This document shows, piece after piece, positions 31,648 through 47,600 of a stretch of 64,000 nucleotides of DNA. Source of the DNA: Endobacter medicaginis. Its GTDB lineage: Bacteria > Pseudomonadota > Alphaproteobacteria > Acetobacterales > Acetobacteraceae. The stretch lies in contig NZ_JACHXV010000002.1 in NCBI RefSeq assembly GCF_014192375.1, positions 124,001 to 188,000 on the forward strand. Direction: 5' to 3'. The notes beneath the pieces are model-generated. The model was not told the origin of the DNA and did not search any database. It saw only the letters and a list, made by a program, of their open reading frames with translations. Within the stretch, counting starts at the first letter, position 1, and every line of letters begins with the position of its first letter. A program made the translations under genes and the position numbers.

Positions 31648-32904
31648 ATGACCAGTGCCGATACCCCTCCGTCCGCCTTAAAGCCTCCTTCGTCGATGAT
31701 CAGCGTGGAGGAGGCACGGACCCGAATCCTTGCCCCCCTCGTGCCGGTCGGCACCGAAACCGTGGCCCTGGGCGAAGCCTGGGGGCGGGTGCTGGCGCGT
31801 GAGGTGGTGGCCCGGCTCGACAACCCGCCCGCCGACGTCTCGGCGATGGACGGCTACGCGGTACGCTCGGCCGACACGCGGGCCGGCACAGCGCTGCGGT
31901 TGATCGGGTCGGCGCCGGCCGGACATCCGTTCGGTGGCGAGGTCGGGCGCGGCGAATGCGTGCGCATCTTCACCGGCGCCGTGGTGCCGAACGGGGCGGA
32001 TTCGATCCTGATCCAGGAAGACGCGACCCGTGAGGGCGAGGCGGTGATCGCCAGTTGCGAAGCTCCGACGGGGCGCCATATCCGCCGCCGCGGACAGGAT
32101 TTCGACCGTGCCAGCGTGCTGCTCGCCCCGGGGCGTCGTCTGGGCGCACGCGACATCGGTGTCGCCGCGGCCGCCAACCATCCGTTCCTGACCGTGCGGC
32201 GCCGGCCTCGCATCGCGCTGCTGGCCACCGGCGACGAGATCGCGCTGCCTGGCGAACCGATCGGCCCGGGCGGCATCGTCAGTTCCAATTCGCTGATGCT
32301 GGCGGCCTTGATCCGCGCCGCAGGCGGGGAGCCGGTGCTACTGCCGCTGGCGACGGACGACAACGACGCCATCGGCGCGACTGCGCGCGCGGCGGCGGGA
32401 ATGGACATGCTGCTCACCATCGGCGGCGCTTCCGTGGGCGAGCACGATCTGGTGCGCACGGCCCTCGCCGCGGAGGGGCTGACACTGGACTTCTGGAAGA
32501 TCGCCATGCGGCCGGGCAAGCCGCTGATGCACGGACGCCTCGGCAGCGGCCAGCCGGTGCTGGGCCTGCCCGGCAATCCGGTTTCGGCCATGGTGTGCAG
32601 CGTGCTGTTCCTGCTGCCGGCGCTGGCGCGTCTGTCGGGCACCGGGGATGAGGGACCGACACCGGTCGAGGCAGTGCTGGAAGAGGGCGTGGGGGCCAAC
32701 GACCATCGCGCCGATCATCTGCGCGCGCGGCTGTCGGTCGGGCGGGACGGAACGCTGCTGGTGCGCGCGTTTCCACGTCAGGATTCGGCCATGCTGCGAC
32801 GGCTGGCGGAGGCGGAGGCACTGATCCTGCGTCCGCCGGGCGCGGCCGCCCTGCCCGCCGGCGCGACGGTGCAGATCCTCCGCCTTGATGGCTACGGGCT
32901 GTAG
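31648..32904 (+). CDS. moeA: Molybdopterin molybdotransferase
   Basis: 418 residues; inserts molybdate into molybdopterin. Visible: D-V-S-A-M-D-G-Y-A-V (domain III), G-A-D-S-I-L-I-Q-E (domain II), L-L-A-T-G-D-E-I, I-V-S-S-N-S-L-M-L, T-I-G-G-A-S-V-G-E-H-D and P-G-K-P-L-M-H-G-R in the molybdopterin-binding domain. ATG at 31648 or 31696. It lies upstream of lexA, the common alphaproteobacterial order, but here separated from trp/moaC. Confidence 0.95.
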   Translation: MTSADTPPSALKPPSSMISVEEARTRILAPLVPVGTETVALGEAWGRVLAREVVARLDNPPADVSAMDGYAVRSADTRAGTALRLIGSAPAGHPFGGEVGRGECVRIFTGAVVPNGADSILIQEDATREGEAVIASCEAPTGRHIRRRGQDFDRASVLLAPGRRLGARDIGVAAAANHPFLTVRRRPRIALLATGDEIALPGEPIGPGGIVSSNSLMLAALIRAAGGEPVLLPLATDDNDAIGATARAAAGMDMLLTIGGASVGEHDLVRTALAAEGLTLDFWKIAMRPGKPLMHGRLGSGQPVLGLPGNPVSAMVCSVLFLLPALARLSGTGDEGPTPVEAVLEEGVGANDHRADHLRARLSVGRDGTLLVRAFPRQDSAMLRRLAEAEALILRPPGAAALPAGATVQILRLDGYGL

Positions 32905-33037: not shown

Positions 33038-33865
33038 ATGCTCACCCGCAAGCAGCACGAATTGCTGATGTTCATCGACCGGCATCTGCGGGAGACCGGG
33101 TTCTCGCCGAGTTTCGACGAGATGAAGGACGCGCTGAACCTGCGCTCGAAATCCGGCATCCATCGGCTGATTTCCGCTCTCGAGGAGCGCGGGTTCCTCA
33201 GCCGTCGCCACCATCGGGCGCGCGCGCTCGAGGTGGTGCGCATGCCGGACTACGACACCCCCAGGCCGCGCGCCTCGGTGCTGCCGACGATGACCGAGTT
33301 GCGCGAGCGCGGGCTGGGCGCGAGCTACGACCCCTTGCCCGGCACGCAACGGCCGGCGGACATCACACCGGCACCGGTGCGACTGCCCGAGCCCGCCCTG
33401 GAAGCGGCGAGTTTCACGCCCAACGTCATCCGCGGCGATTTCTCCTCGCGGCTGCCCGGCGTGCGCGTCGCCGAACAGGCGAGCGCGATCGCGGTGCCGC
33501 TCTATGGCCGCATCGCCGCCGGTCAGCCGATCGAGGCGCTGCGCGACAGCGGCAGCCAGATCGAGGTGCCGATCGCGCTGCTCGGCAATGGCGAGCACTA
33601 TGCCCTGGAGGTGGCCGGCGATTCGATGATCGAGGCCGGCATCCTCGATGGCGACACCGTGCTGATCCGCAAGGAGGAAGCTTCCGAGAATGGCCAGATC
33701 GTCGTCGCCCTGATCGACGACAGCGAGGTCACGCTCAAGCGTTTGCGCCGTCGGGGGGCAGCGATCGCGCTGGAACCGGCCAATCCGAACTACGAGATCC
33801 GCGTCATCCCGGCCGACCGTGTGCGTGTGCAGGGGCGTCTGGTCGGGCTGCTGCGCCGCTACTGA
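33038..33865 (+). CDS. lexA: SOS repressor LexA
   Basis: 275 residues. N-terminal winged helix ([10 protein letters not shown] through L-E-E-R-G-F-L-S-R); C-terminal S24 peptidase with the cleavage site Ala161-Gly162 (I-A-A-G-Q-P-I-E-A), nucleophile Ser196 (A-G-D-S-M) and general base Lys234 (V-T-L-K-R-L). The linker between the domains (about 70-145) is long, making the protein larger than the roughly 200-residue E. coli LexA. The ATG at 33038 is standard. It ends 6 bases from the convergent bioC-bioD gene. Confidence 0.97.
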
Positions 33866-33871
33866 ACCGGC

Positions 33872-35242
33872 TCAGGGCGTAAATCCCCACTCGGCCACCG
33901 CGTTCGCGTCCACCCGGTCGAGCCGGGGGATCTCGGCCAGTACCCGCACCCGCCCCCACGTCTCGATCGCGCGCCGGTTGGCGACGTCCGGCGGCCCGCT
34001 GAGCACCACCCCCGCGACGGCGATCCCCCGCCTGCGCAGCGCCTCGAGGCTGAGCAGGGTGTGGTTGATGGTCCCCAGCGTGGAGCGCGCGACCAGCACC
34101 ACGGGCAGGCCGAAACGCTCGATCAGGTCGATCATCAGCGTCTGCCCGTCGATCGGCACCATCAGCCCGCCCGCCCCTTCCACCACCAGGGGACCGTCGC
34201 CCGGCGGCAGGCGCAGGGCGGCAGGATCGAGCGTGATGCCTTCGGCACGGGCTGCATCCTGAGGTGAAAGCGGGGCGGCGAGCGCAATCACCGGCGGATG
34301 CACGGCAACGCCGGCCAGTTCGGCCACGGTGGGCGTATCGCCAGCCTCGTCGGCGAGCCCGGTCTGGATCGGCTTGAAATAGCTTGCCCCCAGCGCGCGG
34401 GCGAGAATGGCGGAGACCAGGGTCTTGCCGATGCCGGTATCGGTACCGGTGACGAACACGCCCGGCCGCGGCGGCCGGCGCCACAGCCCGGTGCCGATCC
34501 TGTAGCCCACATCGCCGCCCGTGGCGGCGTCGAGACGGCGCATCGCCGCGCGCAGCCGCGCAGGATCGGGGCGGGCATTGCCGATCGCCGCGCCGATGCC
34601 GCGCAGGTCGCGCAGGAAGGCGCGCGCGCCTTCATGGGCGACGGCGATGTCGGCCGCCTCCCACACCCCGCCGGGTCCGGGCCATTCGGCCTGCAGCGTG
34701 CCGGTTTCCGGCCAGTCGGGAAGGCCGGCACCCCACGCGGCGCGCCAGTCGGCGAGGCTGCCGTCGAGCAGCGTGGTCAGCGCGATGCGTCCGCCCGGGG
34801 CGAGACGTGCGGCGAGTGCCGCCAGCGTGGCGGCGCGGTCGGGCAGCCATTGCCACACCAGGGAGCCACAGACGAGGTCGAACCGGCCGTCGAGGGCGGC
34901 GATCGCGCGGGGATCGGCAGCGTCGAGACGGCGGCGGTCGAACGCGCCCGGCAGCGTGCGCAGCCGCGTGCCGATGCGCTCCAGCATGGCGGGCGCGAGA
35001 TCGGTGACGGTCCAGTGGACCGACACGCCGAGCCCGGCCAGACGCGGCGCGAGGGCTTCGGTGAGCAGCCCGGTGCCGGCGCCGATCTCGAGGATGCGGA
35101 GTGTGGCGGGCCTTGGCGCAGCGGCGCGATACAGGCCGGTGATGCGTTCGGCGAGACGACGCGCCACCACGCGCTGCAATCCGGCATGGCGGTCATAGTC
35201 GGCGGCGACGGCACCGAAGCTGGCGGCGATGCGCGCGGTCAC
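33872..35242 (-). CDS. bioC-bioD: BioC-BioD fusion: malonyl-ACP methyltransferase / dethiobiotin synthetase
   Basis: 456 residues encoding two biotin enzymes in one chain. Residues 1-255 are a class I SAM methyltransferase like BioC (S-F-G-A-V-A-A-D-Y-D-R-H-A, L-E-I-G-A-G-T-G at 51-58, L-V-W-Q-W-L-P-D). Residues 258-456 are a complete dethiobiotin synthetase: G-T-D-T-G-I-G-K-T P-loop (266-274), Y-F-K-P-I-Q-T-G, V-V-E-G-A-G-G-L-M-V-P-I and T-L-G-T-I-N-H-T-L-L-S. No stop or frameshift lies between. GTG start at 35242 overlaps the bioH stop by 4 bases (GTGA). BioC methylates malonyl-ACP to begin pimelate synthesis; BioD closes the ureido ring. Confidence 0.9.
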   Translation of the reverse strand: MTARIAASFGAVAADYDRHAGLQRVVARRLAERITGLYRAAAPRPATLRILEIGAGTGLLTEALAPRLAGLGVSVHWTVTDLAPAMLERIGTRLRTLPGAFDRRRLDAADPRAIAALDGRFDLVCGSLVWQWLPDRAATLAALAARLAPGGRIALTTLLDGSLADWRAAWGAGLPDWPETGTLQAEWPGPGGVWEAADIAVAHEGARAFLRDLRGIGAAIGNARPDPARLRAAMRRLDAATGGDVGYRIGTGLWRRPPRPGVFVTGTDTGIGKTLVSAILARALGASYFKPIQTGLADEAGDTPTVAELAGVAVHPPVIALAAPLSPQDAARAEGITLDPAALRLPPGDGPLVVEGAGGLMVPIDGQTLMIDLIERFGLPVVLVARSTLGTINHTLLSLEALRRRGIAVAGVVLSGPPDVANRRAIETWGRVRVLAEIPRLDRVDANAVAEWGFTP

Positions 35243-35895
35243 AGCCCGGCCCCCAGGGCGAGAATCGCATCGGCGCACAGGCGGGGCGCGGTCAGCGGCA
35301 GCAGATGGCCACCCGGGATCTGGCGCAGCGCGTCGCCGAAGCAGGCGAAGGCATGCGCCCGGGTGATCAGCGCGTCATCGACGCCCGCCAGGGCTGCTTT
35401 CGGCCCGGTGAACGACGCCCACTGCGCCCGCATGTCGGCATCGATCAGCAGGCACAGATCGTCAGCCAGCCGCTCGCCTGCGATTGTGGGGGGCGGCTCG
35501 GCAAGGCCGGCCGCACCCTCGCCCTGCCCGGCGCGGAACGTGGCAAGCACCTCCGCGGGCGCGGTCTCGAGGCGGGCCAGCATGCGCGTCGGCAGCCGGC
35601 CCGGGACGCCGGCGGGGAAATCGGGACCGGCACAAAATCTGGCAAAGCCGTTGATCGACAGCATCGCGCCGGGCGGATCGCGGGGCGCGTCGGCCAGCAG
35701 ATGCAGCATCCCCATCGAATGTCCGACCGCGACGGTACCGGCGCGCGGCCCCTCGGGCCACGCCTCGGTCACCGACGCGCCGAAATAGCCGCGTTCGGCG
35801 CAGGCGACGATCGCCGACCCGGCCGGCAGGCAGGCGACCACCCCCTCCCAGAACGATGCATCGAACCCCCAGCCATGGAACAGCATCACCTTCAT
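35239..35895 (-). CDS. bioH: BioH-like pimeloyl-ACP methyl ester esterase
   Basis: 218 residues, alpha/beta hydrolase. Ser60 in G-H-S-M-G is the nucleophile; the catalytic Asp lies in A-G-V-D-D-A and the His in P-G-G-H-L-L-P near 194. Opens with F-H-G-W-G-F-D-A-S-F-W, matching BioH/BioG (H-G-W-G-x-x-x-x-x-W). Position between bioF and bioCD indicates it removes the methyl group from pimeloyl-ACP after the cycle begun by BioC. Shorter than E. coli BioH, closer to BioG, so the exact subfamily is uncertain. Stop-start overlaps link it to both neighbours. Confidence 0.85.
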   Translation of the reverse strand: MKVMLFHGWGFDASFWEGVVACLPAGSAIVACAERGYFGASVTEAWPEGPRAGTVAVGHSMGMLHLLADAPRDPPGAMLSINGFARFCAGPDFPAGVPGRLPTRMLARLETAPAEVLATFRAGQGEGAAGLAEPPPTIAGERLADDLCLLIDADMRAQWASFTGPKAALAGVDDALITRAHAFACFGDALRQIPGGHLLPLTAPRLCADAILALGAGL

Positions 35896-37112
35896 CAGGC
35901 CAGCACCTCGAGCAGGCGGTCGATATCTGCCTCGCCATGCACGCAGGAGAGCGCGAGGCGCAGACGGGCGGTGCCAGGCGGCACCGTAGGCGGACGGATG
36001 GCGACCGCCAGGATGCCGGCCGCCTCCAGCCTGGCCGCCAGCGCCAGCGCCCGGTCCGCCTCGCCCACCGCCAGCGGCACGATCTGGGTCGTGGACGCCC
36101 CCGTGTCATGGCCGAGTGCCGCCAGCCCGGCGCGCAGCCGGTCGGCGAGACCGGCGAGGTGGGCGCGTAAGGCATCGAGCCCGGGCAGGAGATCGAGCGC
36201 GGCATCGAGCGCGCCGAGCACCGGCGGCGGCAGGGCGGTGGTGTGGATCACCCCCGAGGCGCGGTTGAGCAGGAGGTCGCGCAGCCTGCGCGTGCCGGCG
36301 ACATAGGCGCCGAACCCGCCCAGCGCCTTGCTCGCCGTGCCCATCACGATCTCGTCCGGCGCCGGTTCGCCGATCGTGCTGAGCCCGGCCCCGGCGGGGC
36401 CGAGCACGCCGGTCGCATGCGCCTCGTCGAGATAGAGGATGGCGCCGAACTCGGCGGCGATGGCGCGCAGTGCGGCCAGGTCGGCGCGGTCGCCATCCAT
36501 CGAGAAGACGGTCTCGGTCAGGATCAGGCGCGCGCCCTTGCGGTCGGCACGGGCGGCGAGCAGCGTGCGCAGATGGTCGAGATCGTTGTGCCGGAAGCGG
36601 ATTTCCCGCCAGCCGGCGGCACGGCAGCCCTGATGCAGCGAGGCGTGCACCAGCCGGTCAGTGAACACCAGCGTCTCCCCCGCGCCGTCGAGCAGGCTGG
36701 CCAGCGCAGGCAACACGGTGGCATTGGCCTGCCATCCGGAGGCGAACAGCAGTGCTGCCTGGCGCTGCTTCAGCGCGGCGATCCGCGCCTCGACCGCCTC
36801 GTGCGCCTCCAGCGTGCCGCTCACCAGCCGCGAGGCGCGCGCGCCGGTGCCGAAACGATGCGCCCAGGCGGCGGCCCGCTCGGCGAGCAGCGGATGACGG
36901 GCGAGACCGAGATAGTCGTTCGACGACAGGTCGAGCAGCAGCCGTCCGTCGCGACGCAGATGGCCGGGTGGGTCGAGCGGCTGCGGCGGGTCGAGCGGAC
37001 CCACGCGGCGGCGCAGGCCGGAGGTCTCGAGACCGGCGAGACAGGCATCGATGGCACTGTCGAGGCGGATCGGAGACGGGCGGTTCGGGTTCGGGCAGGG
37101 GGAGATCGTCAC
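35895..37112 (-). CDS. bioF: 8-amino-7-oxononanoate synthase
   Basis: 405 residues, PLP-dependent alpha-oxoamine synthase joining pimeloyl-ACP and alanine. Markers: S-S-N-D-Y-L-G-L-A-R-H, G-T-G-A-R-A-S-R-L-V-S-G, E-T-V-F-S-M-D-G-D, Y-L-D-E-A-H-A-T-G and the PLP lysine in T-A-S-K-A-L-G-G-F-G. GTG at 37112 is selected over a longer ATG start at 37181, which would run into the shared promoter. Its stop overlaps the bioH ATG by one base. Confidence 0.95.
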   Translation of the reverse strand: MTISPCPNPNRPSPIRLDSAIDACLAGLETSGLRRRVGPLDPPQPLDPPGHLRRDGRLLLDLSSNDYLGLARHPLLAERAAAWAHRFGTGARASRLVSGTLEAHEAVEARIAALKQRQAALLFASGWQANATVLPALASLLDGAGETLVFTDRLVHASLHQGCRAAGWREIRFRHNDLDHLRTLLAARADRKGARLILTETVFSMDGDRADLAALRAIAAEFGAILYLDEAHATGVLGPAGAGLSTIGEPAPDEIVMGTASKALGGFGAYVAGTRRLRDLLLNRASGVIHTTALPPPVLGALDAALDLLPGLDALRAHLAGLADRLRAGLAALGHDTGASTTQIVPLAVGEADRALALAARLEAAGILAVAIRPPTVPPGTARLRLALSCVHGEADIDRLLEVLA

Positions 37113-37239
37113 GCGGCCCTTCCTGCCAAACCGGCCCGGCGGAGGCAACGCCGAGCCGCCCGGTCCGAGCCGGCGCGACACCCGACACCTTGTCGTTCAC
37201 CTATGGCAGCCGGGGCGGGGATTTGCGACACCGTCGCGC

Positions 37240-38487
37240 ATGACCGACCCACGCCCGGCCCTATGGCTTCCCTACGAGCAGATGAAGACGGCGCCGCCGC
37301 CACTCCAGGCCGCCTCCACGCAGGGCTGCCGCATCGCGCTGGAGGACGGGCGGGTGCTGGTCGACGGCATCGCCTCGTGGTGGACGGCGGTGCACGGCTA
37401 CAACCACCCCCATATCGCGGCCGCAGTGCGCGATCAGCTCGCGGCGATGCCGCATGTGATGCTGGGCGGGCTGGTGCATGCGCCGGCGTTGCGCCTGGCC
37501 GAGCGGCTGGGAGCGATCACGCCCGGCGACCTGCGGCACGTGTTCTTCGCCGAATCGGGCTCGGTGGCGGTCGAGGTGGCGATGAAGATGGCGCTACAGC
37601 TGTGGCGCAACCGCGGCATCGCCGGGCGCGAGCGGTTCCTCGCCTTCTCCGGAGGCTATCACGGCGACACGCTGGCGACGATGTCGGTCTGCGATCCCGA
37701 GGAGGGCATGCATGCGCTGTTCGCAGGCAGCCTCGCCCGGCAGGTGATCGCGCCGCTGCCGCGCGACGGGGAGGACAGGCAGCGCTTCGACACGATGATC
37801 GGCGCGTATGCGCATGAGTTGGCCGGGGTGCTGGTCGAGCCGCTGGTGCAGGGCGCGGGCGGGATGGTGTTCCACCCGCCGGAGGTGCTGCGGCGTGTGC
37901 GCGCGGCCGCCGACCGGCACGGGCTGCCGCTGATCGCCGACGAGATCTTCACGGGTTTCGGCCGCACCGGAACGATGTTCGCCTGCGAGCAGGCCGGCAT
38001 CGTGCCCGACATCATGACCGTCTCGAAGGCGCTGACCGGGGGCACCATGGCGCTGTCGGCGGCGATCGCGCGCCGATGGGTGTTCGAGGCGTTCTGGTCC
38101 GACGATCCGGCGCACGCGCTGATGCACGGGCCCACCTATATGGGCAACCCGCTCGCCTGCGCGGCGGCGAGCGCCTCGCTGGACCTGTTCGAGCGCGAGC
38201 CGCGGCTCGAACAGGCGGCGGCGATCGGCCTGGCACTGGAGGCGGGGCTGGCCCCCTGCCGGGCGATGGCGGGAGTGGTGGACGTGCGGGTGCTGGGCGC
38301 GATCGGGGTCGTGCAGCTTGCCCCCCCGGTCGATCTGGCAGCGATCAAGGCCGCGCTGGTGGCGGCCGGCGTGTGGGTACGGCCGTTCCGCGACATCCTC
38401 TACCTCACCCCGGCGCTGACCATCTCCGAAGGCGAGCTCGATGCGCTGTGCGGCGCGGTCCGCCGCGTGGTCAGGGCACGCGGGTAA
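37240..38487 (+). CDS. bioA: Adenosylmethionine-8-amino-7-oxononanoate aminotransferase
   Basis: 415 residues, class III aminotransferase using S-adenosylmethionine as amino donor. Signatures: L-V-D-G-I-A-S-W-W-T-A-V-H-G-Y-N-H-P, V-F-F-A-E-S-G-S-V-A-V-E-V-A-M-K-M-A, G-G-Y-H-G-D-T, I-A-D-E-I-F-T-G-F-G-R-T-G and the PLP lysine in T-V-S-K-A-L-T-G-G. Divergent from bioF with a 127-base shared promoter region. The final 17 bases overlap the convergent moaE. No bioB is present in the window. Confidence 0.96.
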   Translation: MTDPRPALWLPYEQMKTAPPPLQAASTQGCRIALEDGRVLVDGIASWWTAVHGYNHPHIAAAVRDQLAAMPHVMLGGLVHAPALRLAERLGAITPGDLRHVFFAESGSVAVEVAMKMALQLWRNRGIAGRERFLAFSGGYHGDTLATMSVCDPEEGMHALFAGSLARQVIAPLPRDGEDRQRFDTMIGAYAHELAGVLVEPLVQGAGGMVFHPPEVLRRVRAAADRHGLPLIADEIFTGFGRTGTMFACEQAGIVPDIMTVSKALTGGTMALSAAIARRWVFEAFWSDDPAHALMHGPTYMGNPLACAAASASLDLFEREPRLEQAAAIGLALEAGLAPCRAMAGVVDVRVLGAIGVVQLAPPVDLAAIKAALVAAGVWVRPFRDILYLTPALTISEGELDALCGAVRRVVRARG

Positions 38488-38974
38488 GCCCGGTCCCGCC
38501 GCTCTCCGCCCAGGCGGTGGCGGCGGCCTCGTCCGTCTCGCGCGCTTCCACCCAGACGCGCCGGCCGTCGGTGAATTCCTCGCATTTCCAGAACGGGGCG
38601 GAAGTCTTGAGCACGTCGATCAGCAGCTCGGTCGCCGACAGGGCGGCGCGGCGGTGCGCGGCCGCGGCCGCGGCGAGCACGATCGGCGCGCCGGGTTCGA
38701 GACGGCCGATGCGATGGATGATCGTGCAGGCCAGCAGACCGAAACGCGCGGTCGCCTCTCCGGCGATCCCGGCAAGCGCCGTCTCGGTCATGCCCGGATA
38801 ATGTTCGAGATGCAGGGCTGCGAGATCGTCGGTGGCCGACGTGCGCACCGTGCCGAGGAAGCTGGCGACACCGCCGCAATCGCGCCCGGCGCGATGCTGG
38901 AGATCGGCGAGTTCCGCGCCGGTATCGAAGGGCGCGCCCTGCACCCGGATCAGAGGCGGGGGGCGCTCAGCCAC
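38471..38974 (-). CDS. moaE: Molybdopterin synthase catalytic subunit
   Basis: 167 residues; large subunit that adds dithiolene sulfur from MoaD. Motifs: G-A-V-like entry G-G-V-A-S-F-L-G-T-V-R, L-H-L-E-H-Y-P-G-M-T-E, I-H-R-I-G-R-L-E-P-G, and the catalytic V-L-K-T-S-A-P-F-W-K-C-E-E-F. GTG at 38974 gives a start overlapping the moaD stop by 8 bases. The 3' end overlaps bioA. Confidence 0.93.
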   Translation of the reverse strand: MAERPPPLIRVQGAPFDTGAELADLQHRAGRDCGGVASFLGTVRTSATDDLAALHLEHYPGMTETALAGIAGEATARFGLLACTIIHRIGRLEPGAPIVLAAAAAAHRRAALSATELLIDVLKTSAPFWKCEEFTDGRRVWVEARETDEAAATAWAESGGTGLTRVP

Positions 38975-39236
38975 CGGTGACCGGCGGGAAGAAGGCAATC
39001 TCGTCGCCCGCCTCGATGGCCGCGTCGGGGCCGATGAAGCGCTGGTTGCAGGCCGCGCGTACACGCCGGCCGGGGGCGAAGGCGGCCACCCATTGCGGGC
39101 CGCGATCGCACAGGGCGGCGACGAGCGCGTCGATACGCGCCGGCTCGGGCAGCGCGACACACTCCTCGGACCGGCCGAGCTCTTCGCGCAGCCAGGCGAA
39201 GTAGCGGACCCGGACCTGGGGGGCGACCGCGTCTAT
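38967..39236 (-). CDS. moaD: Molybdopterin synthase sulfur carrier subunit
   Basis: About 89 residues, a ubiquitin-like fold ending in the essential Gly-Gly. The frame reads V-R-V-R-Y-F-A-W-L-R-E-E-L-G, then A-A-C-N-Q-R-F-I-G, and closes I-A-F-F-P-P-V-T-G-G-stop, the classic MoaD tail whose last glycine becomes thiocarboxylated. No ATG, GTG or TTG occurs in frame before residue 50. The coordinates use ATA at 39236, which overlaps the upstream TAG stop as ATAG and has an AAGGTG-like site 5 bases before it; a different rare start or a sequence error is possible. Neighbours moaE and mobB support the call. Confidence 0.82.
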   Translation of the reverse strand: MDAVAPQVRVRYFAWLREELGRSEECVALPEPARIDALVAALCDRGPQWVAAFAPGRRVRAACNQRFIGPDAAIEAGDEIAFFPPVTGG

Positions 39237-47415: not shown

Positions 47416-47504
47416 CGGCAGGGAGTCGGGATCGGTCCCGAATTCGGTGTCGGACAGGAGATCGCCCCTCTCGCTTGAGGGCCTGCGGACGCCCGGTGAA
47501 GGGT

Positions 47505-47600
47505 AGGAGGCCGGACACCGACCCGAGCGGTACCCGTTGCGGCTGCTTCCTTCCGGACCTGACCGAGTTGGCGAGGCGCACGTCCGACGCCGACCTCCCG
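47505..47600 (-). ncRNA. ffs: Signal recognition particle RNA (4.5S, bacterial small type)
   Basis: On the minus strand the sequence GGTCAGGTCCGGAAGGAAGC plus AGCC appears, the universal SRP-RNA core (tetraloop GGAA and asymmetric loop). Flanks pair into a long rod: GGAGGTCGG at the 5' side with the 3' CCGGCCTCC. Length about 96. It lies immediately upstream of dnaX, the usual position in alphaproteobacteria. It would bind Ffh for membrane protein targeting. Confidence 0.93.

Follow-up and report, generated by a model that had tools for sequence, protein, structure and literature searches.

Why should two enzymes of biotin synthesis whose reactions do not follow one another be joined in a single polypeptide chain? 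The question is raised by bioCD of Endobacter medicaginis (33872..35242, minus strand), a gene in the window, by which we mean the whole 64,000-nucleotide stretch of DNA that was analysed. An earlier note, made from the sequence alone, had described its product as an uninterrupted fusion of a BioC-like methyltransferase with dethiobiotin synthetase (BioD) in a compact biotin operon, had remarked that the two steps are not consecutive, and had taken the fusion as a hint of co-regulation rather than channelling. Our analysis indicates that bioCD probably encodes a bifunctional enzyme that arose from translationally coupled neighbours, and that co-expression, and not channelling, is what has been conserved.

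Results

The bioCD frame runs from a GTG start codon at 35242 to a TGA stop codon at 33872–33874 without any internal stop and encodes 456 residues, so that the single chain described before is borne out, and the gene is further supported by family matches and full-length homologues. The BioC domain (residues 1–255; 34478..35242, on the minus strand like all parts of the gene), supported by its match to TIGR02072, a fold match and an alignment with E. coli BioC, is complete through the final beta strand (residues 244–255). It is followed by a linker of five residues (256–260; 34463..34477), as seen in an AlphaFold2 model and in a junction alignment of 30 fused proteins, and by the BioD domain (residues 261–456; 33875..34462), identified by TIGR00347 and by the BioD structures found in sequence and fold searches. 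The AlphaFold2 model of the fused chain has a pLDDT of 93.3 and a pTM of 0.90; a fold search with the BioC half gave A. baumannii BioC (8x8j/8x8i) as the top match, and the best solved folds for the second half were those of BioD. Pfam recognizes methyltransferase domains and AAA_26, and together with the NCBIfam matches this confirms the proposed order of BioC followed by BioD. Two complete biotin domains are thus encoded without interruption in a single frame, an arrangement that is kept in other species as well. A sequencing error or a chance open frame could be ruled out, because dozens of other genomes carry the same two-domain chain, with 37–59% identity.

The two halves match their families to different degrees. 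TIGR00347 (BioD) matches residues 263–415 with 126.8 bits, above its cut-off of 83.3, and alignment with E. coli BioD showed that G8, T11, K15, T16, K37, S/T41, D54, and E115 (E. coli numbering) are retained or conservatively replaced. These include the P-loop residues K15 and T16, K37, and the Mg ligands D54 and E115. The P-loop GTDTGIGKT that had been read from the sequence is indeed present at residues 266–274 (34421..34447, minus strand), with K273 and T274, the counterparts of K15 and T16, invariant in 24 fused proteins; the equivalent of N175 is a serine in the window protein and in some relatives. The NCBIfam model TIGR02072 (BioC) matches residues 8–233 over 218 of its 244 positions with 101.3 bits (E 7e-29), below the curated cut-off of 184.95. 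Nevertheless, the SAM-binding and BioC motifs FGxxAxxYxxHAxLQ, GxGxG, DLxPxM, QW, TTLxxGSL, and GIGA are present in the alignment with E. coli BioC, and the fold is that of BioC. We therefore call the N-terminal half BioC-like and presume that it acts like BioC, a name that rests on motifs, fold, and context and not on the NCBIfam cut-off. Judged by the alignments, both halves seem to have kept their catalytic residues, although the BioC half may be weakened, given the score below the trusted cut-off and the long branch of the window protein in the tree (0.66).

The gene neighbourhood agrees with the description in the earlier note. The stop codon of a bioH-like gene and the start codon of bioCD share the four bases GTGA (35239..35242, minus strand), and the bioH-like gene (35239..35895, minus strand; 218 residues) in turn overlaps by one base with bioF (35895..37181, minus strand), which encodes 8-amino-7-oxononanoate synthase and matches TIGR00858 with 403 bits, just below the cut-off of 426; the true bioF start may be internal, at a GTG near 37112. 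Divergent from these genes lies bioA (37240..38487, plus strand), whose matches to PRK05964 (568 bits) and TIGR00508 (514 bits) exceed the respective cut-offs, so that the order is bioA in opposite orientation and then bioF-bioH-bioCD. The designation as a compact biotin operon holds for bioF-bioH-bioCD with its overlaps of one and four bases but does not extend to bioB, which is found outside the operon in two full-length copies (G000:C1:216863-217777 and G000:C27:6182-7102). Between bioF and bioA, a search for a BirA or BioR operator gave no convincing palindrome, and we do not claim a regulator. The operon is flanked in the window by moeA (31657-32904) and lexA (33038-33865) on one side and moaE (38471-39160) on the other, and the lexA-moeA pair downstream of bioCD is kept in several Acetobacteraceae. 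Elsewhere in the window, at 47502-47599 on the minus strand, there is a bacterial small SRP RNA.

The bioH-like gene product is very divergent: it is an alpha/beta-hydrolase that reaches only 22.5 bits with TIGR01738, for which the cut-off is 207, and it has no Pfam match. However, its triad Ser60-Asp174-His197 is invariant in 22 orthologues, and its position upstream of bioC is conserved. This constant neighbour of bioC may represent an esterase class of its own.

The earlier note had suggested searching for the 456-residue protein in other Acetobacteraceae, and we found full-length fused frames in 31 of 200 genomes and adjacent split genes in 17 of the 200. Fused carriers include Gluconacetobacter, Komagataeibacter, and Commensalibacter, and the genes are split in Gluconobacter frateurii. 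Among 250 genomes from the Alcaligenaceae, the Bordetella/Achromobacter family to which Bordetella trematum belongs, 37 have a fused frame; fused carriers by name are Pigmentiphaga kullae, B. trematum itself, and an Achromobacter. Azospirillum plasmids also carry the fusion, as does a Zymomonas MAG. The protein of Azospirillum brasilense Sp7 (WP_035682570.1, 469 residues) has the same BioC-BioD architecture with 52% identity, and bioF and an alpha/beta hydrolase gene likewise lie before it, but there bioA and bioB come after it in the same orientation; its BioC half is unannotated, as the RefSeq label reads only "dethiobiotin synthase". No full-length fusion turned up outside the window's family in 398 sampled Pseudomonadota, 247 genomes from the Balneola phylum, and 146 from the cyanobacterial phylum of Synechococcus; such sampled absence is weak evidence and no proof, as the class and phylum samples missed Azospirillum.

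Among the relatives, the same neighbours are joined in other ways. The most unusual relative found is a frame of 764 codons in the Bordetella family (L235:2583-4874, genome G974) that comprises BioH, BioC, and BioD, with no start codon near either junction, and whose product may be a trifunctional biotin protein. In four further genomes of this family (L226, L227, L230, L233), BioH and BioC share one frame and bioD is separate, the joint in L226 being a linker rich in Ala, Ser, and Pro, and a Leptolyngbyaceae MAG (L080) contains a hydrolase-BioC frame. Two BioD-only genes of Achromobacter (L236, L237) match the fused chain from near its residue 233 onwards and thus seem to retain a short relic of the BioC C-terminus; bioF, bioH, or bioA gave no match near them. 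In four Acetobacteraceae (L178-L181), bioD has neither bioC nor bioH adjoining, and in three of these (L179-L181) it directly follows bioF; another route, or genes at other loci, must supply their pimelate.

Such remnants raise the question of whether only BioD still works in E. medicaginis, with the BioC half as a decaying passenger. The TIGR02072 score below cut-off, the BioC tail that is all some Achromobacter retain, and the several Acetobacteraceae that have BioD without an adjacent BioC would fit this. We nevertheless consider it highly improbable: neither the frame nor the BioC motifs are disrupted, TIGR02072 matches all 24 fused proteins, the neighbouring bioH-like esterase retains its triad, and no other close BioC was found in the genome, the second match reaching only E 1.7e-7.

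When a tree was built from both domains, almost every fused protein fell into a single clade, made up of Acetobacteraceae, Alcaligenaceae, and Azospirillum (support 92-94); the exception (L031) sits on a long branch. Before Azospirillum was added, a two-state model gave Acetobacteraceae and Alcaligenaceae a fused ancestor (P 0.97), and a free model fitted far better than one with fusion and no fission (lnL -35.9 vs -61.6; 2 x delta lnL ~51). The starred branches of the tree force at least six changes between fused and split, a count to be read with the short tree search, the uneven support inside the clade, and the over-representation of fused-protein relatives in the sampling. The split genes of Gluconobacter and of Bombella-like bacteria are nested within the fused clade, and the tree favours, in a model-dependent way, a single old fusion followed by repeated fission in these lineages. 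An alternative that concerns the history and not the function is convergence, with several independent fusions instead of one fusion and later splits. The parsimony outcome hinges on the costs, and with fission at twice the cost of fusion it is 14 gains and one loss; moreover, in-frame adjacent or overlapping bioC and bioD genes are common, so that fusing them is easy. Convergence nonetheless appears unlikely to us in view of the strong likelihood preference for fission, the confinement of all fused proteins except L031 to the one three-family clade, and the BioC-tail relic on BioD-only genes.

Many split relatives have bioC and bioD next to each other in different frames, either with a common ATGA or with a gap of a few bases. 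E. coli has the same enzymes in the same order, but as two separate polypeptides from genes in different frames that overlap by eight bases. In Bombella-like bacteria (L172-L174), the two genes are in the same frame, with one TAA and 15 codons between them. What the fused and the split forms have in common is the tight gene order, which seems to have survived several losses of the covalent link. BioA of Acetobacteraceae shares 58-70% identity with that of Alcaligenaceae and only about 39-42% with that of other alphas, and together with the tree this would suggest horizontal transfer of the operon between the two families. An AU test, however, left grouping by class standing (p 0.096), so that we draw no conclusion on such a transfer.

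Discussion

The most plausible history starts from adjacent, translationally coupled genes in a bioF-bioH-bioC-bioD operon, in which an indel or a substitution at the overlap would have joined bioC to bioD. Coupling would then have turned into fusion and back, with the gene order mostly unchanged. The N-terminal half would start pimelate synthesis by SAM-dependent methylation of malonyl-ACP, and the C-terminal half would use ATP and CO2 to close the ureido ring of dethiobiotin. As known BioD is dimeric, a BioD-centred dimer bearing two BioC domains is the most likely arrangement. Since the fusion seems to have been reversed several times with the order mostly kept, the conserved element is co-expression and not the covalent link. 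The adjacent or overlapping order in many split relatives and the apparent repeated loss of the link favour co-regulation over channelling, as the earlier note had suggested.

BioC competes with fatty-acid synthesis for malonyl-ACP, and it could be imagined that the link itself is selected, with the tether of BioC to BioD, and to BioH in one relative, forming a small assembly unit or tying the amount of BioC to a low amount of BioD. The fusion is old and retained in many lineages, the linker is very short and the overall arrangement confidently predicted, and the same neighbours are joined elsewhere as BioH-BioC and as BioH-BioC-BioD, the latter lacking a start codon at both junctions. Against this stand the non-consecutive reactions and the apparent repeated loss of the link in lineages that retain the operon, and we regard a selected link as distinctly unlikely. 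The same low probability applies to a multifunctional protein built around a BioD dimer that would keep BioC, with or without BioH, at a fixed ratio, limit the drain on malonyl-ACP, and coordinate the first with the late steps; if this were true, the triple fusion L235 would represent its fullest version. With co-expression of once separate neighbours as the preferred explanation, bioCD looks like an ordinary operon fusion and not like a new machine.

Fusions that join consecutive steps are known from BIO3-BIO1 (BioD-BioA) of plants and fungi, a natural di-domain biotin enzyme. BioWF is, like bioCD, a natural di-domain biotin enzyme, but it also joins consecutive steps (PMC9544090). Unlike in these two, fatty-acid cycles, BioH, BioF, and BioA lie between the steps of bioCD, which upholds the earlier remark that they are not consecutive. 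Closer to bioCD is BioG-BioC of Bacteroides fragilis, for which both activities were shown experimentally and whose steps, as its authors remark, are separated by fatty-acid cycles (PMC3494674). In both cases, BioC is fused to a biotin enzyme of a non-consecutive step and encoded among operon neighbours, but in the Bacteroides protein the esterase BioG is N-terminal and connected by a ten-residue Ala/Pro linker (PMC3494674), and bioCD is known from sequence. Our literature search found no paper on BioC-BioD or BioH-BioC-BioD fusions.

In conclusion, the BioC-BioD fusion is real, conserved, and mostly unremarked, and the two architectures BioC-BioD and BioH-BioC-BioD extend the set of biotin fusions from the already known BioGC, BioWF, and BioD-BioA. 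In genome annotation, the RefSeq label "dethiobiotin synthase" can mask BioC, so that a genome seems to lack the first step of pimelate synthesis. The fused, split, triple-fused, and BioC-lost genes of these bacteria represent a natural set for asking whether the linking of non-consecutive enzymes matters.
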